Part shown: one piece after another, positions 120 through 35,100 of the stretch | Position numbering within the stretch: position 1 is the stretch's first letter | How the letters are laid out: every line of letters starts with the position of its first letter | NCBI RefSeq assembly: GCF_949628215.1 | Contig: NC_134280.1 | Coordinates: forward strand, 46,092,621 to 46,156,620 | DNA length: 64,000 nt | Direction: 5' to 3' | Origin: Phalacrocorax aristotelis | Taxonomy: Eukaryota > Chordata > Aves > Suliformes > Phalacrocoracidae | Notes under the pieces: model-generated | What the model saw: only the letters and a program-made list of their open reading frames with translations | Told to the model about the DNA's origin: nothing | The model's database searches: none | Made by a program: the position numbers and the translations under genes

Positions 120-4664
<4,545 letters not shown>

Positions 4665-4688
4665 AATGGAATCAGTTATCTCTTGTCT

Positions 4689-6700: not shown

Positions 6701-6790
6701 GCCGTCCGGCCGCTCCAGCGCGAAGGGCGCCTCCCGGCGGCGGGAGGGCTGAGGCGCAGCGGGGCCTGCCGGGCGCGTGCCTTCAACACG

Positions 6791-13700: not shown

Positions 13701-14530
13701 TGAATTTCCTATTAAGTCTCAATACTGCCCTTCTCCTAAATTATCTGCAGAGAAGTAATCTAAGCAAGATGCATGTATTTCATGGGACCATGGATTTTTT
13801 TCCTGCCTTTCCAATTTCATATTTGAGGCTTGATCAGAGGAGTAGAAATCAGTTTTTCACCTGTGATCAGCAAATTCCAACTGCTGGAATCCAAACTGAC
13901 AGCACAGAATTTAGCCTAAATTTTATCTTTCACCTCTCCAATTCATTATGTAAACACATTCCATAATGCCACCAGGATTACTATTAGAACAAATTCCAGG
14001 AGGAGAAAGGCACACTTCCATTCACTTTTCATGGGCAATTTCCTTCAATTATGGATTAATATGTATGCAGCAAAACCAGCTTAAATTCCTTTAAGATACG
14101 TAAAATTTTACAGTACCAAAATTAAAGAGCTTTGTATCTGTGAAAGAAGCTTTCCATCTAAAATACTTTATCACCATCATACAGGAAACAGTGTCTTTTA
14201 AAATGGAAAAGAGAAGAAGGAGAGGTGACTGAAGAATACTGTTTAGTCAAAAAATCACCCTGCAAATTGACAAATGTAGCTAAAAAATTGCCTTAATTAT
14301 CCTGATAATGGTGGAAGATGCCACCTTGGAAGCCTGTGGGCTTAAAGTAGGTACACCTAGCATGGTGGCAGAAGCAGCATTCTCTGCATTGTCCTGCCAA
14401 TATACCTCACTGCTAACCAGAAGGGATGGACTTCCAGGAATAGGAAGGCTGCAGAAAGAATATCTACTTTCAATCGCCTCTCCGTTCTTAGTTCTGTTGT
14501 GGACACTGTGCCAAGAGGCCAGTGGGTGCT
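7791..14530. other. Intergenic region between EXT2 promoter and ACCS 3' end
   Basis: About 6.7 kb without a gene I can support. It contains an 11-base G run at 9121-9131 and several A/T homopolymers (for example near 11501-11514 and 12229-12275). A small unit at 10985-11455 has a TATA-like sequence, a 91-codon frame and an AATAAA. None of the other open frames shows a recognisable domain. Confidence 0.7.
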
Positions 14531-15215
14531 GTTTATTTATATGAATACAAAAAAGAAAGATAGAAACAAGGACAGGCATTTCACCGATCAAGGGTGTTGG
14601 ATACTGTGTGATCTGAAGTTAGACTGGAAACCAACACAAAATTTACAGAACTCAGGCTAGATGACCATGGTTCTAAGAGCCCCACCCATGCAGATGAACC
14701 CATACACATGCTTATTTACCCTTAGCTGAGGCTAAGTTAGGGCTGGCACTGGGTTCTATCTCCCAAAAGCACCTCTTTCTGAAAGCAGTCATCTTCTGGC
14801 CCTGAAATAGTTACATCTGATCATCATTCAGGAAAAGGGAAACTTTATACATTTCAATGATCTCAAGTCTCCGTCTTCCTGGAAAGCGTGAAAGAAGCAT
14901 AAAAAAATGACACCACAGGACCTTATAAGAGAGTTAAGAGCATATTCATTAGAAATGAAATACAAAATACAGTGATGTCACAGGACGGGGGCAGCAGGCG
15001 AACAAGACCCCCACCATTCCCTACCCTCACCCCAATCCAAGGAATGCACCTATATAATACAAATTAGAGATCTCAAACAGGGGGGAGAGGAGGGGTTTTA
15101 CAAAGTGATTTTCTTCCTATACAGAAAATATATTATTTGCTGGAAGTCACTGCTGAGCTGCTAGGGGCCCAGGGTCAGTCACTGCTCAGGAAATTCCCTG
15201 AAGGTACGCAGACCC
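14531..15215 (-). other. ACCS: ACCS 3' UTR (extent uncertain)
   Basis: Sequence downstream of the ACCS stop codon on the minus strand. The first canonical AATAAA I find on that strand is at about 14532-14537, which would give a 3' UTR of roughly 0.7 kb. Weaker hexamer variants such as AATATA occur nearer the stop, around 15130. The true cleavage site is not determined. Confidence 0.35.
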
Positions 15216-15514
15216 CTACTGCTTCCCCACCAGTTTGCTGAACACATCATAGATCTCTGGCTTTTCCTGTGCAAACTGCTCGGCTGTGTTTTTCTGTAGC
15301 CAGTCGGATGAACGCATCTGTTGCTGCAAGAGGCCAATGAGGTCACCAAGGTTGGAGCTACTGGCACAAGTAGGCTCCTGGTGGCGGGACACAAAAATTA
15401 CTTCATCTGTGCTATCTGCTTTGCCATCCTGATCTGACTGACAAGGCTGCTCCTTCTCCTCAGCCAGTATTTCCTGCTCCCGCTCTTCCAAAACCTTGCG
15501 GATCCGTTGCATAC
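15216..15514 (-). CDS. ACCS: ACCS coding exon 15 (C-terminus and stop)
   Basis: Encodes G791 (split) to 889: [20 protein letters not shown], an acidic/Gln-rich tail and the end [12 protein letters not shown], then stop. The first residues match human ACCS (GMQRV...VL). The rest is longer than and unlike the short human tail. Acceptor CACTGCAG. Confidence 0.92.
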
Positions 15515-18500
15515 CTGCAGTGGTATAAGGAGAGAAACACTACTGGATTAGTTTAAACCACAAGTGTACCTAAGTCTGTCAAGATTCAGAAGAATATGGA
15601 GGACAGAAGGAAAGGAAAGAAAGCCAGAGGTGACAAGAGGATAATAATAGGATAAGTTTAGGATTAAGGAGAGGAGTAAACAGTGCTGCAGAAGTTCTGG
15701 TGTGAGGAAAAAGAGAAGAAAACATTACTCACCTAACTGTAGCCGATGGGTCTTGTCAGCAAAGATGATGCGGAACCATCCGGGTTCACTGCATTCAAAG
15801 GCTTTACCACAGGACAGGAGGACCTTGTTATCCAGAAAACGCCTCCAGAGCAGCATCTCCTCCTCAAATGTGCCTGTCCTAAGGTACTAGGGGAGTCAGC
15901 AGAAGGGCCAGAGGTTAGTAACATACAGGCTAAATCACTTAGATCCTCATGAATTTGTGATTCCAATGAGGTCTGCAAAGGCCAGGGGAAACACCTTTTA
16001 CCTCTGAAGTACAGCAGTTGTGATATAAAGGAAGAAATGGGGAGGAAAGTGGCTTGAGAACAGTAAGATTCCTGCAAGGAGGGAAATACACAGACAGACG
16101 AAAGGAAAAGAATGGGCAGAAATACCAGGCAGCCCTTCCCTTGGCTTATCAGACATAAGATTTGTTAAAACAAAATGCTTATCACAATATTGAACCTTCC
16201 TCTAGATACAGTTGCACCACATGCCTGCCCTCACCCCAGGAGAAGCCTCCCTTCCTAAGACTACCAACCTTTCGGAAATCAATCCAGACAAAGAAGCCTG
16301 CATTGCGGTTGAGAAAAGGAACCCCAAGTGTCTTCAGCTCATCTGTCACATATGTATGGGCAGCTTTTAGGCGGGCATGGTTGGCCCTCAGGTACACCTG
16401 GTTGATCCAGTCTGACCAGAAGATGATAAAGAAAAAAAAAATATCACAAACTATAGAAAGAATTCATAGAATCATAGAATCGTTAAGGTTAGAGAAGACC
16501 GGTAAGATCATCGAGTCCAACCGCTAACCTATCACTGCCAAGTCCACCACTAAACTATATCCTCAAAGCACCACATCTACCATTCTTTTAAATACCTCCA
16601 TGGATGGAGACTCCACCACCTCCCTGGGTAGCCTGTTCCAGTGCTTGACAACCCTTTCGGTGAAGAATTTTTTTCTAATATCCAACCTAAACTTCCCCTG
16701 GCGCAGCTTGAGGCCATTTCCTCTTGTCCTATTGCTTGTTGCTAGGGAGAAGAGTCTGACCCCCACCTCGCTAAAACCTCCTTTCAGCTAGTTGCAGAGA
16801 GCGATAAGGTCTCTCCTCAGCCTCCTCTTCTCCAGGCTAAACAACCTCAGCTCCCTCAGCTACTCCTCATAAGACTTGTTCTCTAATTCAGATCTGTTCA
16901 AGTCTCCAAAACACCCACAGTACCTTTTTCCATTTCACCCCTCACCTCCTTTTCTTGTTTTCCGTTTCCTCAAATAGCAAAAAGAGGGGCAAGAACTATT
17001 TAGCAGTTTCATGTCTATGCAGAAGAGTATCTTCTTGACCTTCCTGAGGATGTTTCCCTACATTCATAGCCCAGTTGTGGACTGTTAGCACTCCAACCAG
17101 GGCAAAGCTAGAAATACAGTTCCATTTTCCTCCTCCCACAAGCCTGTATTCTTTGTCTTTGCTCATCTGGTTCTACACAACACTGGCTATTTCTATACAA
17201 ATAGCTATGACTTCTTCAAAGCTGCTCCTCTAATTCTGCTCATCAGGAGCTCTGCAGAAATGGTCCTTTTCTGTAGAACTATCAGCCTCATGTTATACGG
17301 GCAGCTTCAGGATTACAGAATTAAGCTGTACAAACAGCAGACCACTTGGAAAAGTAAGGGGAGAGGATCCCCCAGGTACCAATACACACAGAACAGCAGA
17401 GGACCATACATGGAGCTACTGACTCACCTCTGTCTCTAAGCAGCTGTGCAACCTTGTGCTGGACAGGTCCACAAACCCCATGGAAATAACACAAAGAAGC
17501 CACTGCATTAGCAACATCTTGATTCTCTGTATATAAAGTACCAAAACGAATCCCAGAGACAGCAAAATCCTGCAGAAGACATGGAGAGACTACTTTATTA
17601 CACAGGAAGACCAGGGTCCTATTACTACAGCATGAGGAACCTGAGGACACCAGGCCAACCCTACCAGCCAGGAAGTCACCTCACGATGGCAACCAGCACT
17701 CACCTTGCTTATTCCCCACATCACATGAGTCCGTTGTGGATCAGGCAATCTGTATGTAGAAGGATGCAGATGGGCAGTTAGTGTCATAGGTGCTGAAGCT
17801 TTTGGATCACCAGTGCAGCATTGCAGAAACAGAGAGGTGGCATTACACGATGACAGACAGTGCAGCATGGAACATCAGTCAAGTAGGGAAAATTCAAATC
17901 CGACCTAACTTTAGAAGCTAGGAACTCCCTGGAACCAGGTTTAGACACAATTTTTAAATATTTCAGATATACAGATACTTGCAAGTGCTACATTTCATGC
18001 GTAGATTTCCTGCACATATGAAGCTTGTACATATAATGCTAGAAATCAGGCATCTGCCAATGTATTTGCCAAGAACTAGAAGGAATTTTCTTTCTTTCAA
18101 ACCCCAATGGTGTGGAGACAAAGTTCTTCTTTTGCAATGTTGTACATTCAAGCCCAGCAACACTGAGTTAACACTTAACCAAGTTTATTTTATTTCCTTG
18201 CAGAAATTGAAAGAAAAATGGTGAAAACTAGACATTTTTTAAAAACCCAAACATAAAAACACACCATATTTTTAAAAGGCGAGACTTGAAAAGTTTTTCA
18301 TCTCATTAAATCGACACCTAATAAAACCCATTCTCCAGTCTGTAATAACACTGTGATCCATGACTACTGTATGAAAAAAAAATAAACAGCAACAGAAAGT
18401 CTTTACAGGTATCAACAGAAATGTGGGAAAGAGGTAACAATGTTTAGGTAGGAAGAAGAGCCTCTCAACAAATTAGACATCTGCTTCAAGTTTTAGGGAC

Positions 18501-21500
18501 TGTCACAAGCAAATACCAAAGCACACATTGAAAAGTGTACCACGAGAGAAAACTAACTACCATTTTTTACTTGCTAGATTGTATTTGGCAAAATGCATTT
18601 GTCATTCAGAAATCACAAAAAAAAAAAAAAAAGAAGAAATCAGCATAAGGCAGATTCAGAATTTGCTAGCTCATGACTTAACTTCCAGTCACAAGTTCTC
18701 AGCAAGGCATCACGTTGAATTGTCACTGGAAAATGGCCAGGGAAGTAGGAGCTCATTTTACCTGTCCATGCCTAGGACACTGTGAAACGTGGCCGATTCA
18801 TCAAAAACTGACAGCATGTAGATCTCATCTACTATCACATGCAATTCATGTCTGCAAAAGGACAAAATGGAGATTACAAAAGAAGGCTGCTTCTGGTTTA
18901 GAAGCAGAAATAAATTCAGGCCTGCAGAGACTCACTTTGTACAAAGCAGAGGGACACTAAGGTTTGCAGAAGTAAAGCTTTTTTTTTTTCACAATTCAGA
19001 AGGTCTATTATGCGTACATTGAAGTGATTTAAGATATATCCACCTGTCACCTACTGCAACCATATAACAAGATAAAAATTCAGTCATTTCCAACACACTA
19101 GTGAAAATTAATTCCTGTATGTACTACCCATCTAGAAGTTCTATTATCATCCACTCAGAATCACATGGACATTGAATCTCAGAGAGTATCCATGATCCAT
19201 GATGAAGCTGGGAACCCATACTTGTATATTTCTTTGTCTTTGCACATACAGAAAAACTGAGAGGAAAGGAACTCAGCTTCTTACCAGGGAAGCACAGCAC
19301 TATCATGTTTGCTAGGACTACCAACAAATAAAACTTGCATTTCTTGATGCAAGTTGCTTTGCCACTCCAGATGACAGCACGGTCCATGTTCCCTTGTCCC
19401 CTTGCCTCCCATCTTAAGATCACTGCTGTGCTGCTGTGTGGAGGAATAGACTGTTTGCCCGACTTAAAAGGTATTCCCAGATAAATTCAGGGACAGCGAG
19501 TAGTCTACCAGATTCTGAAGCTGTATCCGACTCAGGATGCCTCAGCCTTCCAAACTGACATACCTTTTAGCAAATTCCAGGTATTCCCGTAGCTCTGACA
19601 AGGAATAGATGTCCCCAAGGGGATTTTGGGGATTGAGAAGAATTAAGGCCCTTACAGTGACACCCTGCAGAACACAAATAATGCAGTATTAAGAGAGTAC
19701 CCATCATGAAATAAATTTTCAGTCCCTCTACTTCAGCAGTGAGTGTGACACAAGATTCCCCTTAAGGGAAATTACTTTTCCCTTAAGGGAACCATGACTT
19801 TTCACCTCAAAGGTTAGATTTGTATGAGAACACTTTAAGCCACAAATTAAGATTTTTTTTCAATTACATCACTTGCAAAGTGAACTGAGCAGAAGATTAT
19901 AGAATGAATCTATGATTTTGAAAAGAGGGAGTCTGCCACAACCGTTGCCATCTGGTCAGCCAACGAGAAAGGCGCTCTCACACATTCTCAGCATGGTAGA
20001 GAACATTCTCTGAGCTGTATGGGTAATTGGGAAGTAACAAATTACTGAAGATTGCCCATGAATGGGGCAACAAAGATAGGTATTTGAGCTAGGTGGATCC
20101 AAACTGTTCTCATTTAGAGCACACTTGGCTGGAGATGTCAGATCTGGTAATGATGAAAAGATGCAGCTAAACTTACATAGGGCTTAGGACAATGTCCAAA
20201 CTTACAGACTAACTCTTCAGAAAGGTGAAACTCATCTGGCATTTACCCTCTAGATTTGCACCTCTCTCCCTCCTGCAAAACCTCTCAGTGTTCTTAGTGG
20301 ATTCATCTGCACTACTGCACTACAATATTGGGCCCAATGTTATTCAATATCTTTATAAGTGATCTGGATAATGGCATCAAGTGTAGCCTGATGAAGTTTG
20401 CTGATGACACCACATTGAGTGGGGAAGTAGACACTCTGGAAGGGAGAGCTGCTCTGCGGGGAGATCTGGATAGGCCGGAAGAGCAGGCCAACAAGAACCT
20501 TATGAAGTTCAACAAGGACAAGTGTAAGGTCTTGCACCTGGGAAAACACAGTCCGTGAGTGCAGTACAGACTGGGATCCACCTGGATGGAGAGCAGCTCT
20601 GTGGAAAGGGACCTGGGGGTCCTGGTGGACAGGAAGCTCAACATGAGTGAACAGTGTGCTGCTGTGGCCAAGAAGGCCAACAGGACGCTGGGTTGCATCA
20701 AAAAGGGCATCACCAACAGATATAAAGTCATTATCCCAGTCTACTCAGCACTTGTCAGGCCACACCTGGAGTACTGTGTACAGTTCTGGTCCCCGCTATA
20801 CAAAAAGGATGTGGACAGGCTGGAAGGGGTCCACAGAAAGGCCACCTAGATGATCAAAGGACTGGGAAGCTGCCATATGAGGATAGGCTGGGAGAACTGG
20901 GTTTGTTTAGCCTTGAGAAAAGGAGGCTCAGACGGGATCTCATCACCATGTACCAGTACTTAAGCTTAGGGCAGCTACAAAGAAGATGGAGACTCCCTTT
21001 TTACATGGAGTCACATGGAGAGGACAAGGGGGAATGGACACAAGTTGCTCTTGGGGACATTCTGATTGGACATGAGAGGAAGATTTTTCACAGTGAGGAC
21101 AGTGACCCATTGGAATAATCTCCCCAGGGAAGTGGTTGACTCGACCACATCGGACACTTTCAAGAGTTGTCTGGACAGGGTGCTGGGCCATCTTTGTCTA
21201 GACTGTGCTCTTCCTAGAAAGGTTGGACTAGATGATCCCTGAGGTCCCTTCCAACCTGTGATTCTGTGATACTGTGTAGAGCAGTCAGTTTTGGGCTAAC
21301 TCAGCTGGCCTTCCTGAAGAAAAAAAACCCTGGGCAGTCCCTACTTCTTAGTGCATGTCCAAATATAGCAGGGGCGGGGCAAGTTGTGATATGAATGGGT
21401 TCCAGTGCTTTGTGAATGGTCCAGTACTCCTGGTTTATCCTTTCTGCTGTAACCAAAATTGGACAGACATGACACCGTGGGATTCCCCCTAAGACTGCCC

Positions 21501-24500
21501 TGAGTTTGCAAGCAGCCTTATCTCAGGTCGTCTACAATGACAACTGGAAAGCCAGGTGCTAGGTTTTGAAAATGTTGTGGTCTTCAGGCCACTTCTGGGA
21601 TGTACTGCCTCAAACATATTGTAGACTTAACTGGTAATGTGAAGCTCAGCTAAACTCACCTCTGCCCGGGCATCCTGCAAGGCTTTTTCCAGTTTTTCCA
21701 CTGTAAGCTGAAAAGGCCGAGTGCTTGTTCCAGTAATCTGAAAGACATCACAAAGATAAAAGGCCAAGTTATTTCTATAGAGTCTGCCATGAGCCAATCA
21801 CCTAGGAAATGTTCCCCAAAAGAAAACAGCAACCCAACAATAACGACCCAGCAACCATCTTCCTATCCTTTTATACTACAGAGAGAATAAATACATAAAA
21901 AAAAGTTCATCATAGGCTGGCCACACACAGGGAATTCTCTAGTTATCCTCAAATAACTAAAACAATGTAAGATCTCCATGTGCTCTTCCACCCCTGGGAC
22001 CATCTTTAGTAGGGCAGTACATACTTCTGCCTCCAAGGCTCAAAATGGCCATTTTTTAAATCTCAAGAGCCATTATTGGGAATAAGATACAAGAAAAGAA
22101 CAAGACTGGAATCCAGATTTGTGGTCTCAAACAACTTTCTTGCAAATTATGTGCCCAGTTTCCCAGCAATAAATTGGGAACATGTCCACGGGCTGCAGCC
22201 TATCCTTGTTCTGAGGACTGCTTTCAGAAGTTCCCAAAGCTCAGCACTTTCGAGTGTCAATTATTTTTTAACTACAGAGTTTGGTATTCCCTTCCCGCAG
22301 GTCTTACCTTACTGTCTAAATAGGCATACACCAGCTTGACATTACCATAGAGGAAGACACTCTGGGTAATACCACCATAAAAGGGAGTAGCAATCAGAAC
22401 AGCTTCTGGAACCGAGAAAACAAAATTCGTTATCAACAGGTCCCAGTCCTTCTCTCTCTTCTAATGTACTTCAGCTAAACGTGAAAGCTTTTTTACAGCT
22501 GTGCCCTCTGGAAACACCATAATGTTACTGCCTTTTCCTCCACTTTATTTTTACATTAATTCTTTAATCGTCTGCAAGAACCCAGGTAAACATGAGTATA
22601 GCCAACGTTTAGTCTAACAAACTAAAACAGGTCACCATGAAAACAGTGAAGTCAGACAGGGTAAGGCACCAAGTGTGAGTGCATGACATCTGCAGACCAT
22701 GGAGATGATGAATTTCACAGCAGAGTCTTGCAGGAAACAAGAACTTTGCAGTAGGCCAATGTCAATTCCACTACTTCACTTCCATCAAACAATATTTAAA
22801 CAGAGTAACACATTATTTCCCAGCAAAAATAAACATTAAAAAGATCTCCCAACCATCCACTTACCCCCTGGATCACAAAGAACTGTAGCTAATGCAGAAA
22901 ATAAAGAGCCACAACCATTTAAAACAATCACCTACAGAAGAAAGAGAGAGGCTAGTGATAAATTTGTCCATAGAAAGACAACACTTTAAAATAATAATTT
23001 CTGACCATACTACTGAAATATATTTTATCCCCAATTCTCTGGTACAGATATTCCCAGAACTTTCCTACTGAAATCCCACTTCTACCAGAAATAACTTGAA
23101 ACCTGTTCTTTACTTCAGAGACACTTCGTCCCAGTGCTGTTCTTGATTCTAATAAGCAATTTAGAAGAAGAGCAGGCTTTGAGCAGGGAAAAAATCAGGG
23201 AGCAGTTCTGAACTCTTAGAAAAGCAAACTACTTTTCATCAGCTAATATGTGGTATTGTCTCTTTGTGGTAACAGCAGCTCCAATCTCCTGCCAAATTTG
23301 TGCAAAAGTAGGAACCATTGTCTTGTACAGGAGCAGGTTTGACTCCTGCTTGTAGAAGACTTGCTCACAGGTCCCATGAGTTTCACTCCAAGTATCAGAC
23401 AGAATCTGCTGCCTTGGAGAAGCAGTGGTCAGCAAATTGATTAGTGGTAACTTCAGTTCATGTGAAGTATGGGCTTCTGCTGAATTATTGCAGGCAGAAA
23501 AGCAATGGCTGCACCAGCTCCTGCTGCCTCCAGCACTCAGCAGAGGCAGGAGTCCCTGAACTCTACAGGTACCTGTGCCCAGCCTGCATCTCCCCCAGGT
23601 CAGCAGGTCCTGCAGAGACTTGGGTCTTGATTCCTTCCTTACAGCACTGCCTCAAAGTTTGGAAAGGTCTGTTTTCACAGGCTAAAACTACTCTTGGGTC
23701 CATTACAGACTTTTGTCCTGAAGGTGTAACAGCAGAAGGGGATGAAATTAAACTCAGCTGAAACAATGGGCACTTTTTATAAGGCTGAGGGATACAGGCA
23801 CAGTAGGTCCCAGAGCTGAGTAAAGAGATGAAAACAGAAAGCCCCACTGAGCGCACTGCCACGAGGAGTTGGCACACAATAGTAAAGCATGAGGCAAACA
23901 TACAGTAGACCTGGAGTGTTTTGGCTGAAGTGTGCATGAAAAGCTATTGAAATGGCTATGAATCAATCTCATTTACATGATAAAAGGCTGTCATCTTACC
24001 AAATAATTCGTTTTAAAAAAAAAAGAAGTTGCAACTGTGTGACAACAAATGGCAATACATTAGAATAGACACCAATGGAAAGTGGGTTACCCACATTTTC
24101 TGCCTTAAGAGGTGCAGGGGCCTTGCAGTAATAGGTCAAAAATCGAGCCACTTCCTCCCGTAAACTGAGAAAGACACAAAAGCAAATATTGATTCAGCTT
24201 ATTCTCCAAGAGGCTGGCCTTCCCCAGGTCCACATCTCAGGAAAATAAAGCCAGGGCACAGTAAAGTCTGGTAAAAATAGCTAGGAAACAGGATAGCTCA
24301 GGCCCACGCCCCAGACATGACTTTTACACATGTCAAAGGTGTCACAATAGTCTATAATGGTCCATACATTCCTGATGAGCTTTAATCGAAGCACAGAAGA
24401 GAAGGATTAAAGTCCCCAGTGTTCACTATGTTTCAAAATTGGAGTTACCTAATTCGTTAATGTATACAGTGCTTTAAAAACTGTCTTTGCTTTAGAAAAT

Positions 24501-27500
24501 TTGCATCTTCTCTCACGTGAAAGGATTTTTAACAGGATGAACTGGTAGGGCAGCTAATTTACGGTTTTTGCAAAGAAAAAGATTACTAAATGGCCTAGAA
24601 AAGTTTTAACTAGTGAGTGTAGTAACAGAAGTGGTCTGTATTCATCCATTTTGCTTATCAGACAAGTAGTCAAAAAGAGAAGCATAACGGAAAAGACTTA
24701 CAACATATGTCCCTTCCAGTCAGGATACTGAAGCAGTGGAGGCTCCATCAGATTCATATCTGTCTGTGTCAGCTGGGAGCAACGAGAAGAACCATTAAAA
24801 GCACGATCACTGGTATTGGAAACATGGAGATAGACAGGATCCACATACAGGCACACACCTGCATAGACATACACGCACACACGCAACTTCAACAGTTGTA
24901 AAACTGGACTGAGAAAGCCACTGACCATCAAAATTAAAGCAGCTTGGAAATGGACCAGCAAACCAATCAGTGGTAACTTCATGTTATGTGAAGTATGAGC
25001 TTCTGCTAAGTTATTGCAAGCCAACACTTAACTGCACGGAGATCTACAAAAGGACGCAGAATGGGCAATAGACGTGATGCTCATAACCAAGATGCCTGCA
25101 GAAGGCTGTCTCAGCAAATGAAGCAACCCAAATAGTCCCAAAGAGCGTTTTGCCCAAGCTCTGAGGACAAGAGCTTTCAGCTGGAAAGTAAATCCCAATT
25201 GTGAAAGCTCAGGTCTAGACTGTCAGAGACAGAAAAAATTCTGAATCACAGTCAGACATGTATTTTCTTTAATAATCTTTCAATATATTATTTTTTAAAT
25301 GAATTCTAGCTTTCACTTATGTCTCGGTTCCAAGTTACTGCAGCTCCTTCAGATCTATAATTCTGATAAGTTTTGATAAATGTTAACAAGGAGCTTTCAA
25401 AAGACAGGAGAAAAAGGAAATTATCTTCTTGGTAATTCTTCCTCAGAGCAGGCACTTTCTTCCTTATTAGGAGTCCATTCTGATCTCGAAGACAGATTCA
25501 CCTGAACTGTGGAGCCCTTTTAATGTTTATATTTAGATAAAGTATCCACAATAATTTTATCTAAATATTTTCAAGGTTGTAACTATCAAGGGTTTCACAT
25601 AATCCAGTTCTATGAAGTTGCGAGGGAAAGCACAATGGTGATGGGGCAGAAAGGACATTTTACATGAACAAGAAGGGAATGAACAAATATTATGCACAAT
25701 GTACCTTCCAAATATTTAATGGCAACCAAGTCTATGAGTCAATATTAAAAAAGGTGAGGGTGGGGCAACACGACAAGAAGGTGACAGTGCAAGGAAGGAG
25801 GGAAATTCAACATGCAGTGTGAAAGTTTCTCAACCACATTGAGAACCACAACATTCTGTATTGGTGTTTTAATAACTGGTGCCAAGCTCTGGAGTTTAAA
25901 GATACTGTCCTTACCCCATGTAGAATTACAACCTGATATTATAGGATTAAAGTTCCTTTATTCATCTGTAGATGTTCTTGAAGCCTATGCAGCACATAAC
26001 TGTGCCTCCTTAGATCTCTCTCCTAAACTTATCTAGAGAATGCAACATAAAACATATCAGCAGACTTGGCCAAACATGACTACGCAATAATAATGCATCA
26101 CCTTTAAGTGTTCCCCTCTTTAAGGGCTAAGGAAACTAGATGGGCCAGCTGAAACAAAGACCATCTGAGATCCCACGCCACAAAATATTCTCTAATTTAA
26201 GGGTCAAAAGTTGAAGGCAGTAATCTGATACATCACTTTATTCAGTGGAAACAGTAAGTATTTATTGTCTCAAACAGCAACAAATTATTTGCCTGCAGTC
26301 CCAGCTGGTGCTGCATTCAGCAAATCCATCCCGTAGCTCCAGGGTGCAATGACTGAGAAGCTGGCAACAGTATCTTTGTTCAGCTTCTTGCCACAGCATG
26401 ATGGCTCATCTCACTATAGCCAATGAAGCCGTAACTCATTTTCATAAGGCTAATTAAGATACAGCTGACTACCATCTCTCTGTGCACTACTTACTGCAGG
26501 CTTGGTGTTAGTTTTAAGGGAAAAGGACAGTGAAGGAAGGAAGGTACCACCTATGCAGCCTAGAAGGCACCGTTTTTGTGCAGGCGGCAGCTCTGCCTTA
26601 CCTGTTCTTTTAGCTGGAAGGCGGAGTGGTGGGGTAGCATCCCCCCGAGTCAGTGGAGTGGCAGGCAGAAATAAAACAAGGAACATTTTGAGGGTGGGGA
26701 TTGGGGGAACAGGAGCAACAGTGAACTTCAAACTGCAGAGGCCGACTGTCCAACCCTGAGCCACCATCCCTCCCCACAGACAACTTCAGGTAGGAGAAAC
26801 TGCCACCTGCCTGCCTCGCAGGCTGCACCTGGGCAGTGATTTTTAGGGGAATTGGGACACATTCCTCTACAGCATGGTTCTGCTGTTTTCTTTTGACTTT
26901 TTCTACTTTTTGAGTTGTGCTGTGTTTCATGCCTCTCTCTGGTGCAACTGAAAAAAGTAAGCAGGTAGCAGCTGACCCAGTCTGATTTCGAGAGATCACA
27001 AGGGCTGCCACCATTCACTGCTGCCACCCTCACACATTTTGGCTAAGTTCAGAACCGGGTGTCCAAATCATGTGACTTTATAATGGACAGATATGAAGAT
27101 CCTTGAAATTAGAGTTCAAAACTAATCTCAAAACCTCTGTATTAAATCAACTACTGTCAGCAAGAGAAAATAAAATGCATCTTATTTTCATTTAGTTTTC
27201 TGAGCCAAGTGCATCCCCAAAGGAAAACCCATCATGAAGAGGAACATAAAAACACCCTTGTTCCTCTCCTCCTGGAAAAATAACATAAATAAATGTACAA
27301 ATAGCTGGATTTAAAAGTGAATTCCAACAAATAAAAAATTCACAATGAAAAACTTTACCAAAGGAACCTGAGCAACAGCAACAACTGTAGGAAAGTGCAA
27401 GCACTGTGGAGGAACTAAATAGCAAATTCAGTATTTCTTTTTGGGATAGGACTTACCCGCTTAGACATCAGGTCAAAGCAGAGCTTATTCTCACTGGTGC

Positions 27501-30500
27501 CAAAGTTTATTATACCCTAGAAAAAGAAAAAAAATTGTTTACAGACACAAAAAACATGGGTATACATCACCTTAGATATCACTTCACTGAATTGCCTCCA
27601 AAAAGCTCATCAAGGAAAAGACAAAACAGAGTTCACATAATCTTCACTATATATAACTCGAGACACATATCTGTGTGTGTGTGTTTACATGTATGTCCCA
27701 GGCACTCAGCTTCTGAGTCAATAAACTGTCTAAATGAACGTGTACTAATGGGTTATACTTATTTACAGAATATGTTTAACTTAATCTTGATTCACTCACC
27801 GGTATATATCTAACTACAAAAGAAACCCTCAAACAGTTCTGAGAAAACTGAGGTTTACCCTTCAGCCACAATTTTAAACAAGGTTTTGGATACATTTCTT
27901 CATCTAAAATTGTTTATCACTCATTACCATTCCACTCCACTGATTTGCTCAGAATCCACAGAAACGTGTAGTCATAAGAAGTGGTTTAAACAATAAATTT
28001 TCCCTCCTGGAGAGACAACTATACAGTTCCAGTTTAGGATTTGGTCCTGCTTGTGCAGAGTTCAAATCTACTAGCACACTTTCACTACTGGAAGAGGTTG
28101 GGTAAATAAATTTTTTAAAATGCAAAATGAAATCTAAGCAACTCTATGTTTATGATGTTACTAAAGTACAAGTCCAGTTTTAGTCATTTTTCTAAAAAGC
28201 TAGTTCCTACATAGACAACAGTGGGGAGAAAAGGCGGTTTGTGCCTCATAATGCAGCTTGTATCAAGAACTTTACTGTGTTTTTCTACCTTAAAAATCTA
28301 GTTTTCACCACTTTTCACTACAGTCAGGGCTAGTAATAAAACATCTTTTAAGTTTCAAGTATTTCACTGTTTGAATGCAGGATCTATTTAAAAGTAATCC
28401 GCATATAAATTATTATTTATATTTACTATACTTGTTACTCAGTAATGATTTGCCATGAAGTATTAACACTCAGCCTTTGTGCCACAAGGGGGCTATGATG
28501 AGCTACCTAAAATTGGCCAGCCAAGGGTAAACAGAAAAAGTGTTAAAAAAAAAAGTTAATTAAAAGTAATTTAAAAAAAAAGTCTACTACTTAGTTGTTG
28601 CATCTGCTGCACCCAACACCTGCAATAATCAGATATAATCAGATAATCAGAGATGGTCTTCAGTGGGCAACAGAGGTGATGAGGTGAAAGGAGGAAGAGG
28701 AGCGCGCTCTGTTCCTGCAGACTTATATCTTTCAAGGCCTACTACTGCTATTATTTCCCCTATAGGGATATTGGAGCATGCAAACCTGAGCTGAACATGG
28801 CATTTATCTTTGATACACAGATGATCTTCAAAGCTACTTTTTATTCCTCTTCCTCAAACAAACAGCTTGACCCGCAATGCATTAGTGAGATTTAAAAAAA
28901 ACCCAACAAACCCCATGCTTTTAGCGTATCTGTCAGCAAACCTCTAAGAAAGTTTTTTCCTAGCAAGAAAGCCAGGAAAACACTTTGAGGTTCTCACTCA
29001 CATTGGGGTTCTTGTCTTCATCATATTTGTCAGCATGATAAGCTTTGTACCCTTCCTCAGTGGAGCCACGAAAAATGTTAGCAATGTTGCCACGAGCAGA
29101 GAGGTAGGGGCTTCTCTGGAAGTCGCTGGGGTTACAGAAGCCGTGCATGTCAACCCTCCTCTCGCTCAGCGGCCGAGGCCTCATCTCTTGCAAGTCGCCC
29201 CCTCCTCCTCCCATTCCCGTAATTTCGGACAGTGCCTGGCTGAAGTCCAAGCCCCGGGGCATTGCAAGGGAGGAGGAGGAGCCACTATGGCTCTGCTTTA
29301 GGATGCTGAGCATCTGAGCAAAGACATTGAACATGCGAAACTCATGCTCCCGCTCCAGTTCAAACCGGCGCTGCTCCAGCTGCATCCGGCGCTCCTCCAC
29401 ATCCAAATCTCGCTGAAATCGACGTTCTTCCATCTGCAAGAAGCGCTCTTCCATGGCCCGCTGAGATGTCAGGGTCTTCAGCAAGAGATCATCGAGCGGG
29501 TCCTTCACACGCTGGCCTTTCCGCTTTTTTCTTAGCCGATGCAAGGTGGAGAAGCCAGGCCGGGAAACCACGTTCTGGATCCGTGATGAGTTTGCCATGT
29601 TGGGCTCACTGAAACCTGTGAATATGTAAAAGCAAGGAAGAAAATTTAAACATGCAGCAAGTGGCACGGACGTGCTTTGCTGCCTTCCCCTGCCCCTCCT
29701 AGCAAACACCCTTTGATCTACTATAAGTCTTGCAGGAAAACCAAAGTAAAACCTATCAGGCATGTCTTGAAGTTTGTGAGTTTTTTAGAAGTTTGTTTTT
29801 AACTTCACATGTTGGGCATCCCCTCATGCCGCCAGCCCCTGCCCTATACTCGGCCTCCAAATCAACCTGAACAATTGTCCGCTCCCTCCACTGGACTAAC
29901 TATGCAACCACCACAGCGAAGAGGACTTAGCATTTCTTCCTGATCTCAGACATTAATCTCACACCAGCTATCGTCTCTCTTCTTCCCCACCATGCTGTGC
30001 TCTTCCATCAGCCTGTCCTAGACTGGTTTGAAATCTGCAGGATTTCCAGACTGTACCCTTCCTGGCAGCCAAGCAACGGCCAACTGCACTTTCAGTGCAG
30101 GAGTCTCATCTCTTGTAAACAGATATGCTCTTCCTGCCAGTGACTTTCAAAAATATCTTCTTTCCAAGTCCTAATGAATAGCTTAGAAAGGCAGGCAATG
30201 ATTACTCTCAAGTATCCTTCATTGTGGAGTGTCCTAAAAGATTAGATCCGGAATATACTTTAAAAGAACGCAAGGAAAGTTTCACCTGCAGGTTTACGGT
30301 GTAGCCATGGTGGAAGGGGGTCTCCTGATACAATTCAGCATGAGGACCACGGACAGCCCTGGTGATGTTCAAATGCTACCAAAAAGCATGCAATTTTTTT
30401 TTTTTTCAGTAAGGTAAGTACTGTCAGCATTATATGCAGAAATCTAGAACAGATACCTAGCCTGGCTTACGGCAGGCATGCCAGCCCTTTGGATCTCATA

Positions 30501-31384
30501 CACAACATTTAGCCTAGCACAGTAATTTTAGATTTTATTTACCTGCTGCAAGATACGTTTCGGGAATGGCCAGAAGACTATGAATGCCGATACCAGCCTT
30601 CTACTTTAAAGCTTTTTGGGACGTGGAAAAATAAGGATCCAAACGTCAGTGCAAAAACCAGGTGTCTATCTCTGCACCAGAAAAAAAAAAATCTGTCTGG
30701 GAAACCGGGCAGAAACCTTATGCTGGAATGTAAAAGGCTATCCCTACCTGAAGGTGAAACACTGGTTTCAATGGGAATCTCCACCCTGGAGATGGGAGAG
30801 TCGTTCTGGGCCCTCTCCAAGAAGGCTCTCTCCATCTCATGTTCTTCAGGGGAACCCTGCTGGTAAGACATGGATGGTGGGGGCTCTGGGGTCAAGCAGT
30901 GTTCATCAGAGTTCACCTCCTCACATTTGATTTCCATCAGTTCAGGGTGCTGGGCGTGTCCAAAGGGCAGGGCCGAGGAGGCAAACTGGTGATGGTAGCT
31001 CTCCACCATGCTGCCCTGCAGCACCTGCTGAGCCATCATGCTGCCGCTCAGGGAGCTGTAGGCCAGTGCCGGCCGGCTGGTCAACACTCGGTCCATCACC
31101 TCGTAGAACTTCCATGTCCGGCCGCCCCGCGGGGCCTTGCTGTTATCCTTGATCCTCCGGTATTCCAGCTTCATCTTCTTGATCTTCTCCCGGCACTGGT
31201 CGCCCGTCCGGTGGATGCCCTTCTCCCGCAGCACCTCGGCGATGCGGTTGAAGACATGCTGGTTGCGCAAGCAGCTCTCCAGCTCCATCTGCACCGACTC
31301 GTCGGCCCAGAGCTGCAGCAGCTCCACGACCTCGGGGTCCGACCAGTTACTGCCGCGCTCGTACTTCTTCCCCCGAAAATCCAT
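15216..31384 (-). CDS. ACCS: ACCS with N-terminal Myb/SANT-like domain and coiled coil (15 coding exons, about 889 aa)
   Basis: Joined coding exons in transcript order: 31384-30748, 29615-29002, 27516-27457, 24772-24702, 24164-24095, 22931-22865, 22405-22308, 21737-21660, 19664-19564, 18851-18762, 17749-17704, 17569-17428, 16411-16269, 15886-15733, 15514-15216. They sum to 2670 bases, exactly 889 codons plus stop, with GT/AG at every junction and consistent phase. Residues about 10-102 are a Myb/SANT-like (Myb_DNA-bind_4 type) domain, 239-248 a basic stretch and about 256-316 a charged coiled coil. From about 383 onward the protein is ACCS, a PLP fold-type-I relative of plant ACC synthase. 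Expected cofactor residues are present: N579, D607, Y610, K644 (Schiff-base lysine), R652 and R778. Human ACCS is about 501 residues, lacks the first two modules and is reported not to make ACC; its substrate is unknown. The start ATG at 31384 has A at -3 and G at +4. Confidence 0.88.
15733..15886 (-). CDS. ACCS: ACCS coding exon 14 (substrate-carboxylate Arg)
   Basis: Encodes residues 740-790, including [20 protein letters not shown] and [21 protein letters not shown]778 in GWFRI is the arginine that binds the substrate carboxylate in fold-type-I enzymes. Acceptor TCCCCTAG, donor GTGAGTAA. Confidence 0.95.
16269..16411 (-). CDS. ACCS: ACCS coding exon 13
   Basis: Encodes [20 protein letters not shown] and on to FFVWIDFRK (residues 692-739). 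Acceptor TCTGGTCAG, donor GTTGGTAG, a weaker but usable site. It matches human ACCS closely. Confidence 0.94.
16412..17427 (-). other. ACCS: ACCS intron 13 with CR1 insertion
   Basis: Intron of about 1.0 kb, of which 16463-16884 is a CR1 fragment in the same orientation as the gene. The remainder has no recognised element. Confidence 0.8.
16463..16884 (-). mobile_element. CR1 LINE, 3' end fragment in ACCS intron 13
   Basis: Begins at the low-coordinate side with the CR1 tail (AATTCATAGAATCATAGAAT on the plus strand) and continues through the conserved 3' UTR and ORF2 end. Landmarks on the plus strand include CCTGTTCCAGTGCTTGACAA and CTCCTCTTCTCCAGGCTAAA. It is truncated near 16884. Minus-strand orientation, sense to ACCS. 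Confidence 0.95.
17428..17569 (-). CDS. ACCS: ACCS coding exon 12
   Basis: Encodes [20 protein letters not shown] and on to QLLRDR (residues 645-691 plus one base). R652 in GIRFG is the arginine that binds the PLP phosphate. Acceptor TTCTGCAG, donor GTGAGTCA. Confidence 0.95.
17704..17749 (-). CDS. ACCS: ACCS coding exon 11 (Schiff-base Lys)
   Basis: A 46-base micro-exon encoding [15 protein letters not shown] (residues 630-644). The final codon is the PLP Schiff-base lysine, K644. Acceptor ACATACAG, donor GTGAGTGC. Confidence 0.94.
17750..18761 (-). other. ACCS: ACCS intron 10
   Basis: About 1.0 kb of AT-rich intron between exons 10 and 11, with an A-rich run near 18608-18640. No repeat family or coding frame was recognised. 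Confidence 0.75.
18762..18851 (-). CDS. ACCS: ACCS coding exon 10 (PLP-nitrogen Asp)
   Basis: Encodes [20 protein letters not shown] and on to GMD (residues 600-628, with split Arg codons at both edges). D607 is the aspartate that pairs with the PLP pyridine nitrogen and Y610 the conserved tyrosine. Acceptor TTTTGCAG, donor GTAAAATG. Confidence 0.94.
18852..19563 (-). other. ACCS: ACCS intron 9
   Basis: About 0.7 kb between exons 9 and 10. Nothing recognised apart from a short T run near 18980. Confidence 0.75.
19564..19664 (-). CDS. ACCS: ACCS coding exon 9 (NPQNPLG motif)
   Basis: Encodes residues 566-598 plus two bases, including [27 protein letters not shown] is the aminotransferase signature whose second Asn (N579) contacts the PLP ring oxygen. 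Acceptor TTCTGCAG, donor GTATGTCA. Confidence 0.95.
19665..21659 (-). other. ACCS: ACCS intron 8 with antisense CR1
   Basis: About 2.0 kb, nearly half of it a CR1 copy on the plus strand (20325-21282). It also holds two copies of a CCCTTAAGGG palindrome at 19759-19791. Confidence 0.8.
20325..21282 (+). mobile_element. CR1 LINE, about 0.96 kb 3' portion, antisense to ACCS
   Basis: A plus-strand CR1 copy that keeps the end of the reverse transcriptase region and the 3' UTR. Translation from 20328 gives [18 protein letters not shown] then FADDTTLSG, containing the FADD catalytic motif. Frameshifts and a stop near 20556 break it, and a second frame continues with [18 protein letters not shown] and [20 protein letters not shown]. 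The tail ends with the avian CR1 terminus (TTCCAACCTGTGATTCTGTG at about 21250). It is non-functional and 5'-truncated. Confidence 0.95.
21660..21737 (-). CDS. ACCS: ACCS coding exon 8
   Basis: Exactly 26 codons (residues 540-565), including [18 protein letters not shown], which matches human ACCS. Acceptor GTCTTTCAG, donor GTGAGTTT, phase 0 on both sides. Confidence 0.94.
21738..22307 (-). other. ACCS: ACCS intron 7
   Basis: About 0.57 kb between exons 7 and 8; nothing recognised. Confidence 0.75.
22308..22405 (-). CDS. ACCS: ACCS coding exon 7
   Basis: Encodes [20 protein letters not shown] and following residues to 539 (LVYAYLDSK). The TPFYGG stretch aligns with the PTPYY motif of ACC synthases. 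Acceptor GGTTCCAG, donor GTAAGACC. Entry phase 1, exit phase 0. Confidence 0.93.
22406..22864 (-). other. ACCS: ACCS intron 6
   Basis: About 0.46 kb between exons 6 and 7; nothing recognised. Confidence 0.75.
22865..22931 (-). CDS. ACCS: ACCS coding exon 6 (PLP phosphate-binding turn)
   Basis: Encodes residues 485-506, [20 protein letters not shown] then PG, plus one base. The NGCGSLF stretch is the position of the PLP-phosphate-binding turn in fold-type-I enzymes. Acceptor TTCTGTAG, donor GTAAGTGG. Confidence 0.92.
22932..24094 (-). other. ACCS: ACCS intron 5
   Basis: About 1.2 kb between exons 5 and 6. It contains copy A (23411-23495) of a short repeat that recurs in intron 3. Confidence 0.75.
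23411..23495. repeat. Short intronic repeat, copy A
   Basis: Shares long near-identical stretches with copy B about 1.5 kb away, for example GTGGTAACTTCA, ATGTGAAGTATG and GCTTCTGCT. It lies in ACCS intron 5. The family is not identified; it could be a local duplication or two copies of an old interspersed element. Confidence 0.6.
24095..24164 (-). CDS. ACCS: ACCS coding exon 5
   Basis: Encodes [20 protein letters not shown] then AEN (to residue 484). The donor is AAT followed by GTGGGTAA. This choice, rather than a later GT, keeps the length equal to human ACCS at the ENVVVLNG junction. Acceptor TTTCTCAG. Confidence 0.92.
24165..24701 (-). other. ACCS: ACCS intron 4
   Basis: About 0.54 kb between exons 4 and 5; nothing recognised. 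Confidence 0.75.
24702..24772 (-). CDS. ACCS: ACCS coding exon 4
   Basis: Encodes residues 438-460 plus two bases, [20 protein letters not shown] followed by GHM. The acceptor GCTCCCAG and donor GTAAGTCT are clear. It corresponds to the QRDMQRVEPSLLQYADWRGH region of human ACCS. Confidence 0.93.
24940..25022. repeat. Short intronic repeat, copy B
   Basis: Partner of copy A, in the same orientation, in ACCS intron 3. Similarity covers about 80 bases with scattered substitutions and fades on both sides. Confidence 0.6.
25529..25568. repeat. 13-base perfect inverted repeat, 14-base loop
   Basis: ATATTTAGATAAA at 25529-25541 pairs perfectly with TTTATCTAAATAT at 25556-25568. It lies in ACCS intron 3. 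It may be a remnant of a small palindromic element or chance in AT-rich sequence. Confidence 0.6.
27457..27516 (-). CDS. ACCS: ACCS coding exon 3
   Basis: Exactly 20 codons, [20 protein letters not shown] (residues 418-437), matching the conserved ACC-synthase-like start of the enzyme fold. Acceptor TTTTTCTAG, donor GTAAGTCC, phase 0 on both sides. Confidence 0.94.
27517..29001 (-). other. ACCS: ACCS intron 2
   Basis: About 1.5 kb of AT-rich intron between the coiled-coil exon and the first all-ACCS exon. It includes a (TG)n run at 27672-27684 and a small tandem of ATAATCAGAT near 28625-28650. No recognised repeat family. Confidence 0.75.
27672..27684. repeat. (TG)n microsatellite
   Basis: About six and a half TG dinucleotide units in ACCS intron 2. 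Confidence 0.7.
29002..29615 (-). CDS. ACCS: ACCS coding exon 2: basic stretch, coiled coil and ACCS N-terminal homology
   Basis: A 614-base exon in one open frame, residues 213-417. It begins [14 protein letters not shown], then has the basic [10 protein letters not shown] stretch (239-248). A strongly charged coil follows, with repeated EERRF, EERRM and EQRRF units (about 256-316), then a Gly-rich linker. The exon ends in a stretch homologous to the human ACCS N-terminus (from about 383: YLSARG, then [19 protein letters not shown]). The acceptor is CATATTCACAG and the donor GTGAGTGAG. Phase 1 entry from exon 1 completes a Gly codon; exit is phase 0 into GIINFG. An internal ATG (MANSS or MHGFCN) could start a shorter isoform. 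Confidence 0.9.
29616..30747 (-). other. ACCS: ACCS intron 1
   Basis: About 1.1 kb between the Myb/SANT exon and the coiled-coil exon. No second promoter-like CpG island or in-frame stop-and-start arrangement suggests that two genes meet here. Nothing else recognised apart from a T run near 30393-30406. Confidence 0.75.
30748..31384 (-). CDS. ACCS: ACCS coding exon 1: Myb/SANT-like DNA-binding domain
   Basis: Encodes residues 1-212 plus one base. The Myb/SANT-like domain covers about residues 10-102, with spaced aromatic residues W14, W26, Y75 and W91, the [17 protein letters not shown] helix and a final WKFYEVMD helix. This layout matches the Myb/SANT-like domains of ZSCAN20/ZSCAN29 and related MSANTD-type proteins. 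Residues 103-212 are low-complexity and acidic, with Met/Gln/Ser-rich stretches. The donor after PSG is CAG followed by GTAGGGAT (phase 1). The same frame stays open upstream of the ATG to about 31564 without another ATG, so 31384 is the likely start. The exon lies in a CpG island. Confidence 0.85.
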
Positions 31385-32130
31385 CGTTCCCGGGGTCTCC
31401 CAGGGGGTGCCGGTGTGCCGGGGGCGGCCACCGGGCCCAGGGCCGGGCCAAGCGGCGGGAAGGGGCGCCGAGGAGGGGGCTGCGCCGGGGCTCCCGCCCG
31501 CCGCTAAGCCCGGCCTGGCCCGGTCCGGGGGGCCGGGCCCCCCGCCGAGAGGGGGCTCTGGCACCTCGGCCCGGGCGGCCCTGCCTCCCCCCAGCCCCTA
31601 ACGGGCTGCACGGTCCGGCTCGGCACAGCTCGGTTTAGCCCATCCGCTAGAGCCGGGCGGAGCGAGCTAGCGGGGAGCCGGGCCGGCATGATCACATCCG
31701 GGGTGACGCACATGCGTGCAGCCTTATTCCGGGATAAATTTAGTCCGTGCCAGGTGCTGGCTGATCTCTCGGGGTCGTGCCAGGCCTGCCCGTCCCCGCC
31801 TGGCACTGCTTGGCTTCCCGCCCCCCCCCCCCCCCCCCGCCATCACTGGCCCAGAGCGAGTCGGGAGCCCTCGGTAGGACCAGGGCCCCTCCCCGGCCCG
31901 GCAGCCGCCGGTGAAGAAAGCGATACCCCCGCAGAGCTGCTTCCCCGGGCCCGCTTTAACGGGCGGAGGGGGGGGCGGGGGGTGTCTCTGGTGGGCCTTG
32001 GGATGTTGGCGGCTGTCCCCGGCAGCCCCCGGGCCACTCGGGCAGGGCTGGGGGACATAGCACTGCCTGTGCTCCCCGGCAGCAGCGAAGGGCTTGGGCG
32101 CCCCGTTTGGCACCGTCCCTCCCGCAGCCA
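31000..32130. promoter_or_regulatory. ACCS: CpG island promoter of the Myb/SANT-ACCS gene
   Basis: A long GC- and CpG-rich stretch covering most of coding exon 1, the presumed 5' UTR and the upstream region. No TATA box is visible. It carries an 18-base C run at 31821-31838 and a G-rich tract at 31961-31982. It is the only CpG island associated with the ACCS transcription unit, which supports a single transcript starting upstream of the Myb/SANT exon. Confidence 0.8.
31821..31838. repeat. Poly-C run (18 C)
   Basis: An uninterrupted run of C on the plus strand, G on the coding strand of ACCS, about 0.44 kb upstream of the ACCS start codon. Confidence 0.9.
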
Positions 32131-35100
32131 GAACGCTGAGCAAGCAGCAGGTACGGAGGGACCAGACGTCACATCAGTTCGCTCTTTACCACCCCCCACC
32201 AGCTGGTTGCACAGTTCAAATCCTTCCAAGTACCCCCGGTCTTCTGTTACATCCCTGAACAGGGTGGAGGACTGCAGAGAGCAGGATTTCTTCCTTTCCC
32301 TCTATGCCACCAGGTCAAATTCCCCTACAGAGATCTACAACTGCAGAACTCGAGTCTTTGCAGAGCTGTCCTGCCGCATCAGCTATGATGATGGCCTCAA
32401 GCCACACTGCAGGGCGAAGCATGTTGTACCATGGTCCATCAGTTTGGAAATTTCAGTTTCAATCCTGAGCCCGGCAGGATAAGGACTGAGCCCTAAGGCA
32501 GTAAGTATGAACATAAAACCAGTAATTTATGAGAAAAACAGAATGAAACACAGTGCATCCATATCCTGTACCACAGTTCTCACAGCTAGTGGACAGGTTG
32601 TGAAGGACACATTAGTTTCACAATTTTCCTTTTCAATCAAAAGAGTTTCATCGCAGCACCGTGGGGCTTTTATCCTATTCGTATTAACTTCCTCCTGGAT
32701 TTTAATAAATCATTCATGGCCACTCTGATTCCATTTCTCAGTCTGTGAAATGGGAAAAAAAAATCTTGATCTTCATTATATTTTGTGAAATACTTTGAAT
32801 ACTGTCTGTATGGGGTGGGGAAGAGACAAGATTTGGCTTTAAAAATTATACTACCTTTCCTAATAACTTATCGTCAGATAGTAGTTTGGATTTTTTCCAG
32901 TGGCCTGCATAAATAGAGTTTGTACTTCCACACCCCCATAAGACAGACATGGTTTTATTTTCCTAGAGTTTTTCATGGGAACAGCACTGTGTTCTACAAA
33001 TACGGTCTTAATTATGTAAGGACATTTACATTGACTGCATACTGGAGTATGCAAAGATCAGGGCAACAATTAATAGAGCCATCGATGGTAGAAGTTCAAT
33101 AGTAAATATAAACAGATTAAAGGCAGCATGGAATAGTCTTTTTAAAAAGCTTTTCAAAGAAGCCTGAGAGCCTGGCTGCAGCCTGTTATACCTGTTATAA
33201 CTTAGCCAGGCCACAGTAGAACATTCTCAAAAGTAACTCAACATACGCCCTGGCTTCAGAAAGAGCCACTATTTCAAAATGCAAGCATTAAAAGGGATGA
33301 AGCCTAGATTTGTGATATAAAATAATAATAATTAATCCCAAACTGCTGTTCATGGTTCAGTTGTTTCCACCTTTTTATGCTACTTGAAAGGGAAACTTGA
33401 TTTTTTAAAATTAATTTAAGAGCTTCCCTCACAATCATTTGTCAGGCATGCATAGCATTGAGAACAAATGTATCATGTGCTGTTATATTGCTGAGATATT
33501 TTGAGATGCCAGTTCTTCAAGCTGCTGTTCCAATTCAGATAGAAAGAGAAAACTACCAGGGGCTGTGTTGCCAAAGTGCAAGAAGCGATGGTGTTGAAAT
33601 GTGCACAGTGCCAGCCACCAAGAACCACAAAACCAAAAAGAAAGACTTTATTTTCTGAACTGGTTTGTACACCTATTTTAGAGACAGAAGCGTAGATGCC
33701 ACCTAACTTGACGTACCTAAGACAACTGGCTAATTCTTTTAACACTCATTTGACAAAAAACCCTCTTTAGCTTTCCTTTTCATGCAGCAAGCTCAGGAAT
33801 GCCAGCCAAATGCTGCCATTGAGTACCTTCCTTATTCTCAGAGAATTTCACACCTTGGTTTCATCTCAGCAGATGACAGCTGAGTGTCACAGTTACAGAG
33901 GGAGTAGGGGACTGTGCTGTCCTGCCAGTTCCCATAAGTAATGACATTCAAAATAAATTTTTATTAAATTTGGAGTCTAGCTCAATGGTGTGGTTGCAGA
34001 CGGCACTGAAATGAAAGCCCTGGAAGCTGAAGTTTCTATTTACAGCACATTTGATAGCGGAGTGGAAGGGGCCTATTGAATATCAGGCCTTCAGCTGGGA
34101 AGCATGACAACCATCATGGTGGTTTTGGTAGGGAAAACTTTCACAGAAGCCAACGGAGGCCTTGCAACCCAGTTAAATGTCAGATGGTAACAATAAATGC
34201 TTTTGTTGTAACTACAGCAGGTTAAAAAAAAAAATATTTAAAAGCCTTAAAATTAGAGAGGCCTTTGTGCTGCAAAGAGGATGGCTAATAATGAGAGGCA
34301 GTTTGGGTTAGCATCTCCACCATCGTTCTGCTCTCTACTCCTCTCCCAAAGAAAGTAATTCGCATCCTCTCCCGGCAAAGGGGACATTTAGCAGTTCCTA
34401 CTGCTGGCGCATCCTGAGCTGAAGCTTTGCAAAGCAAAACCTCTCTGGCTTTTTGGCTCATGGCTTTCTCGGCTCTGTGGGAGGAGACATGGTGGGATGG
34501 AGGTGTTTCTGGCAGGCCTCCTCCCTGGGCAGGCAGCTCGGTGGATGGCAGAGTTATGGGTGGAACGTCCCTGCAGAGGGTGCTCCAGCCCTGGCTACCT
34601 TCCTCTAGCTGGCGCACGCCACACTGGGTCTGTAACCTGCTTCAGGTTTTTGTGGAAGGTCATGGGTGGGAAGGAGCTCATGCAAGCAGGGGGACCTTGG
34701 CAGGCCAGGAATGCCTCAGCAGGAGATTTAACCAGAGGGTCAGTTGCCCAGCAGGCCTGTTTTCCACAAGTTCAAGTACATGGCTCTGCATGGTTTGGTA
34801 TAAAAGGAAGTTTCTGCTGCAGTTGACTAAAACACAACTCTGTTCCACATCCTCTGACATAGAAAAGGATGCTGGTTTGACTCTTGCAATGCTGTAGATC
34901 AGAGGAAGGCTATTTCCCTGGGATGCATCGCAGCTGCTGGCAGTGCTTTACTTAAAGCCCAGCAGCACTGTGACCGAAGCCACAACCATCTGATGCTTGT
35001 TTCCATGCTGACTTAGAGTCAGATGAGTTGAGCAGGCTCAGGTCTAATTCCTAAAGAGATGACACTGGTAACAATTCTTGGCAATAATTGCAACTTAGAA

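Follow-up and report, generated by a model that had tools for sequence, protein, structure and literature searches.

Why should a bird gene for an enzyme-like protein that carries pyridoxal 5'-phosphate (PLP) begin with an exon encoding a Myb/SANT-like domain? The question is raised by the ACCS gene of Phalacrocorax aristotelis, which lies on the minus strand of a 64,000-nucleotide stretch (the window, to whose positions coordinates refer unless a contig is named) of contig C5 (NC_134280.1) in a 1.28-Gb genome. The answer proposed here is that this gene, situated near an EXT2-type gene, encodes a three-part protein in which a Myb/SANT trihelix, a charged helix-like stretch and a complete fold-type-I PLP domain resembling 1-aminocyclopropane-1-carboxylate (ACC) synthase follow one another in a single chain, and that this protein would act as a regulator that binds DNA. 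For this reading as a whole, mechanism included, the probability is put at about 0.5.

A preliminary description had joined fifteen exons through GT/AG sites into one frame of 889 codons, and the rebuilt gene bears this out: the exons, of which the first spans 31384-30748 and the last 15514-15216 on the minus strand, form a single frame of 889 codons plus a stop, the introns run from GT to AG in 14 of 14 cases with consistent phases, and the junctions that had been named at 30748/29615 and 29002/27516 are correct. The exon borders were picked by eye, guided by known ACCS motif words, and then checked computationally. What had been overlooked is a 12-nt microexon at 26613-26602, which the fit of published chicken primers requires. 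In the order of transcription the exons are as follows.

30748..31384, minus strand: exon 1, residues 1-212, with the ATG, PF13837 (12-99) and an acidic tail
29002..29615, minus strand: exon 2, residues 213-417, with RKKRK at 241-245, the helix-like stretch 253-323, a linker and the first ACCS residues from about 383
27457..27516, minus strand: exon 3, ACCS, GTSENKLC
26602..26613, minus strand: 12-nt microexon LKEQ, from the sequence and the chicken primers of PMC12847875, additional to the 15 exons
24702..24772, minus strand: ACCS exon, QYPDWKG against QDYHG in two aligned ACC synthases
24095..24164, minus strand: ACCS exon of the rebuilt gene
22865..22931, minus strand: ACCS exon of the rebuilt gene
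22308..22405, minus strand: ACCS exon, TPFYGG
21660..21737, minus strand: ACCS exon of the rebuilt gene
19564..19664, minus strand: ACCS exon, NPQNPLG
18762..18851, minus strand: ACCS exon, VDEIY
17704..17749, minus strand: ACCS exon whose final residue is the GISK lysine (K644 in the 889-residue model), opposite the YSLSK lysine of ACC synthases in the alignment
17428..17569, minus strand: ACCS exon of the rebuilt gene
16269..16411, minus strand: ACCS exon of the rebuilt gene
15733..15886, minus strand: ACCS exon, GWFR
15216..15514, minus strand: last exon, C-terminal tail and TAG stop

The N-terminal domain is matched by the Pfam family PF13837 (Myb/SANT-like) over residues 12-99, with an E value of 3.5e-21 and 75.8 bits against a curated cut-off of 27, and 20 columns are identical between it and four other such domains of the same genome. 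Its predicted structure is a trihelix, with mean predicted local distance difference test (pLDDT) values of 84-96 in seven ten-residue blocks over residues 11-80; the model of exon 1 as a whole has a pLDDT of 64 and a predicted template modelling score (pTM) of 0.44. The third helix (residues 59-79) holds nine lysines or arginines and three acidic residues, and among proteins of solved structure exon 1 is most similar to the DNA-binding protein GT-1 (E 2.6e-4). A further basic stretch, RKKRK, is encoded by exon 2 at residues 241-245.

The C-terminal part is matched by PF00155 over residues 420-786 (E 1.2e-60, 206 bits). Structurally solved ACC synthases can be aligned with residues 400-800 or so of the predicted protein, and the six best PDB matches, among the best 60 of 72 at E <= 0.001, are all ACC synthases (E 7.4e-65 to 5.8e-61). 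Inspection of the alignments with two of these enzymes shows that SK, NPxNP, DEIY and GWFR are retained, including the PLP lysine, which together with its partner motifs has established roles in such proteins. Two positions that likewise have established roles in ACC synthases are changed: the tyrosine of QDYHG is replaced by the tryptophan of YPDWKG, and the first serine of YSLSK by the glycine of WGISK. The motif test for plant ACC synthases was negative, and among 25 of the 64 matches of an NCBIfam scan only aminotransferase-type families occur, all of them under their own cut-offs.

Between these two domains lie residues 253-323, which contain neither proline nor glycine and are 39% charged. 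The domain ranges first given for the SANT and ACCS parts were thus roughly right, similarity to an ACCS paralogue on contig C2 beginning at about residue 383-390, and the coiled coil that had been placed between them is unproven, as discussed below. The helix extends to about residue 323 and the LSARG segment of the ACCS part begins at about 383, so that the junction of the two falls inside exon 2; since helix and ACCS start lie within one exon, the fused frame needs no unusual splicing.

The argument for a fusion of two genes is that each half has an unfused relative in the same genome with which it shares introns. A genome search with residues 213-889 (E <= 0.001, 22 candidates, to be read as a lower bound) found ACCS-like exons only on C5 (12 matches) and C2 (4 matches), and no further ACCS copy beyond these two. 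The C2 paralogue (G000:C2:26314439-26327497, minus strand), whose exon borders were set by eye on the pattern of the C5 gene, reads as an intact gene of 14 exons and 488 amino acids with GT/AG at all introns. The two proteins are 51% identical over 437 amino acids, and the C2 introns coincide with those of the 15-exon C5 model in position and phase in 13 of 13 cases. Unlike the C5 gene, which has a SANT domain, a helix and one more intron, the C2 gene starts with a GC-rich first exon of its own that encodes a short Gly/Ala/Pro-rich N-terminus and reads LSARGARIAGG. None of the eight PF13837 matches in the genome lies on C2, and in the 40 kb around the C2 gene nothing better than E 4.7 was found for C5 residues 1-379, neither SANT nor helix. 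A lone additional copy of one ACCS exon is present 3' of the C2 gene (L021 7731-7645, minus strand).

The single intron by which the C5 gene exceeds its paralogue separates the SANT and helix exons, and an MSANTD-like gene on contig C1 has an intron that corresponds to it and agrees in phase. There a SANT exon that is 41% identical to that of C5 (E 6e-20) is followed by a helix exon, and the phase-1 intron between them is aligned with the C5 intron (...PSG/FSE vs ...GDG/FKE). The C1 helix exon matches the C5 helix in blastp at E 4e-7, a score reached by 0 of 2000 shuffles. The difference is that C1 has no ACCS match at E <= 0.001. IKCE at residue 152 of the C5 protein and IKVE at 171 of the C1 protein resemble SUMO sites by the usual pattern, but this pattern occurs twice more in the former and once more in the latter.

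The layouts of these two unfused relatives suggest a real and old gene fusion, in which, most likely, a SANT-helix gene would have been fused in frame with an ACCS gene at the latter's first coding exon, the point of joining lying inside the present exon 2. That one fused gene is present is highly probable, and the earlier claim to this effect is well supported by the comparison with two paralogues of the same genome and by the position of the helix and the ACCS start inside one uninterrupted exon. Two separate genes, the obvious alternative, are weakened by this shared exon 2 and by the paralogue introns.

What such a protein might do is less firm. The basic third helix, RKKRK, the trihelix model and the GT-1 match make a nuclear or chromatin-linked role plausible, and if the fused gene is granted, a DNA-binding regulator is a somewhat better than even prospect. 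The basic stretch would carry the protein into the nucleus; dimerization through the ACCS domain and the helix would bring a pair of SANT domains to DNA; and the PLP domain, its lysine kept and two motif positions changed, would serve as a ligand-sensing part or as one that handles amino acids locally. This would be the working principle of the bacterial MocR regulators, arrived at independently. Control through PLP on the MocR pattern is rather improbable. Few animal proteins are known in which a transcription-factor domain shares a chain with a metabolic PLP fold, and the ACCS form would be such a case. In MocR proteins a single chain combines a DNA-binding domain with an aminotransferase-like PLP domain (PMC5320631; PMC5734734, PMC6677901), and the predicted C5 protein resembles MocR and GabR in likewise carrying a DNA-binding-type domain together with a fold-type-I PLP domain. 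In the bacterial proteins, however, the DNA-binding domain is a GntR winged helix; this domain is not among the four Pfam matches of the C5 protein at E <= 1, and membership in MocR was rejected accordingly. The Myb-like proteins of Harbinger transposons, too, are DNA-binding proteins with a Myb/SANT-like trihelix (PMC9179366).

Comparison with the human proteins bears on the age of the join. Human ACCS, of about 501 amino acids, is not known to have a SANT domain or a helix, and its N-terminus matches exon 2 only from YLSSRG on; in a provisional human sequence this N-terminus gave no alignment with the exon 2 helix beyond chance (3816 of 5000 shuffles attain the score). Residues 1-125 of human ACCSL, likewise in a provisional sequence, align with the exon 2 helix (score 78, reached by 0 of 5000 shuffles), a lead only; presumably this protein too has no SANT domain. 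The LSARG...DKN segment is matched by both human proteins. Provided that these human sequences are correct, the helix was joined to ACCS before birds and mammals split, and the SANT domain was lost in mammals. A broader and rather unlikely extension would hold that the ancestral ACCS of vertebrates was a DNA-binding regulator responsive to PLP, a counterpart of MocR, which is whole in birds and survives in mammals as two remnants, ACCSL with the helix and ACCS without it; if true, this would help explain why human ACCS is without ACC synthase activity (PMC2748086). ACCS and ACCSL are orphan vitamin-B6 proteins, the human ACCS lacking the activity for which it is named, and the SANT-bearing form offers a testable idea of what the family did, namely gene regulation tied to a fold that senses or handles amino acids.

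Several points weigh against a fused regulator. The joining of exons 1 and 2 in the mRNA is read from the genomic sequence of one species, as DNA binding, nuclear entry, dimer formation and PLP sensing are from the predicted protein, and the chicken primers cover the ACCS part and not the SANT junction. The heptad periodicity of residues 253-323 does not exceed that of shuffled sequences, 380 of 2000 of which reach the same value, so that a coiled coil as such is unconfirmed. The similarity of the C5 and C1 helices is weak and emerges only when selected regions are compared (tblastn E 2e-4 and 9e-5, in addition to the blastp value): the whole-genome search with residues 213-889, in which the C5 helix formed part of the query, did not return C1 at E <= 0.001, and at the same threshold a search with the C1 helix returned nothing but C1 itself, and so not C5. 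Six 10-kb stretches around PF13837 matches (L009-L012, L033 and L034, with limited flanks and without the eighth genome hit, L008) were compared, and a helix exon beside the domain was found only on C1, at E 9e-5, the runner-up having E 0.65. Three of the PF13837 exons stand in a row within about 21 kb of contig C4 (G000:C4:52942000-52971999, L009-L011) as a small tandem SANT family, with no helix exon beside them in the 10-kb regions.

Of the other explanations, the one that survives best, though we consider it improbable, accepts the fused protein and sees in it an ordinary ACCS-type PLP enzyme rather than a regulator, the SANT domain being a part for protein or chromatin contact or a leftover. 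It is consistent with the ability of the trihelix of such domains to contact both DNA and proteins (PMC9179366), with the retained PLP motifs, and with the C2 paralogue, through which an ACCS protein without SANT is maintained in the same genome. The basic third helix and the similarity to GT-1 argue for DNA contact instead, and a domain with 20 identical columns and a PF13837 score so far over the cut-off gives no sign of decay.

Less probable still is a division of the locus between two transcripts with different main products, one encoding a SANT-helix protein that terminates after exon 2 and the other, begun at an internal promoter, encoding an ACCS protein. Read-through past the exon 2 donor would meet a stop after 13 codons, an AATAAA is found at 28845, and exon 2 is mildly CpG-rich (observed/expected 0.53-0.89 in 29000-29599), which makes an internal start possible and so counts against the fused regulator as well. 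However, with 16 AATAAA/ATTAAA sites in 14000-32500 a single AATAAA is no evidence, the exon 2 donor has a good score (9.0 with approximate weights), and the first ACCS residues sit in exon 2 in frame with the helix. Moreover, the CpG island that covers exon 1 and its upstream side (31000-32199; six 200-bp bins with GC 0.61-0.85 and CpG observed/expected 0.57-1.00) is the sole strong one in 14001-34000, as judged from a 500-bp profile and 200-bp bins. A misassembly or chance reading that stitches unrelated neighbours together, for which it can be said that a single assembly was examined, is very improbable given that the helix and the ACCS start share one open exon, that the introns match those of two paralogues, and that the exostosin exon found further downstream on the gene's own strand fits the usual neighbourhood of ACCS.

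The probable frame of the fused gene is one of 893 codons, because chicken ACCS primers fit a cDNA that contains LKEQ. The microexon reads ag/CTAAAAGAACAG/gtaagg in the window and is in frame. The primers are printed for XM_015287196.4 beside the number 137, in a column whose heading lies outside the available portion (PMC12847875). Reversed, the chicken reverse primer reads AAA CGG / CTA AAG GAA CAG / CT and so passes through LKEQ codons that come after exon 3 and before exon 4 of the 15-exon model. With the microexon included, the primers match the window cDNA with 4 mismatches in 20 and 3 in 22, and would amplify 137 bp; if it is left out, the reverse primer fits nowhere with less than 8 mismatches in 22, and its best position is upstream of the forward primer site. 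Splice signals alone would prove nothing, since the C5 intron that holds the microexon contains 10 stretches of the form AG/12 nt/GT; the matching C2 intron contains four, none of which resembles LKEQ. As 12 nt keep the frame, forms with and without LKEQ may both exist.

Among the entries listed for ACCS or SANT terms in the open-access literature there is no report of a SANT-ACCS fusion, and none appears in the available portions of PMC10027918, PMC2748086, PMC12363045, PMC12847875, PMC8088581, PMC9179366, PMC10976558 and PMC5320631; the scope of this survey stopped short of subscription papers and of automated gene models, in which the long form may well be present already. ACCSL and MSANTD4 are named on different chromosomes (PMC10976558).

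Downstream of the C5 gene and on the same strand, an exostosin GT47 exon is found at about 4364-4122 (1-14000, two of three minus frames scanned), and GT64 exons, again on this strand, lie outside the window at C5:46028598-46036631; both probably belong to one EXT2-type gene. The human gene order is ACCS-EXT2; human ACCS and the C5 gene have the PLP domain family in common. On the other side, six frames of 33501-48500 gave no Pfam match of any kind. At the C2 gene, an AAA lid match lies on the 5' side and a PEX1 N-domain at C2:26358760-26358882, about 31 kb away. Both fit a chicken chromosome 2 gene list that gives GATAD1, ACCSL and PEX1, with ACCSL beside PEX1 (PMC10976558), and the C2 paralogue is probably the gene that the chicken annotation names ACCSL. 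This bird gene is probably not the counterpart of human ACCSL, because the C2 gene lies near PEX1 and human ACCS and ACCSL both have the entry 11, taken as the chromosome, in a table of PMC2748086. Chicken ACCSL is among the genes differentially expressed in the hen's magnum (PMC8088581). Within the C5 gene itself, frames resembling the reverse transcriptase of a long interspersed nuclear element (FADDTTL), as judged by eye, occupy 20298-20849 on the plus strand, antisense within an ACCS intron.

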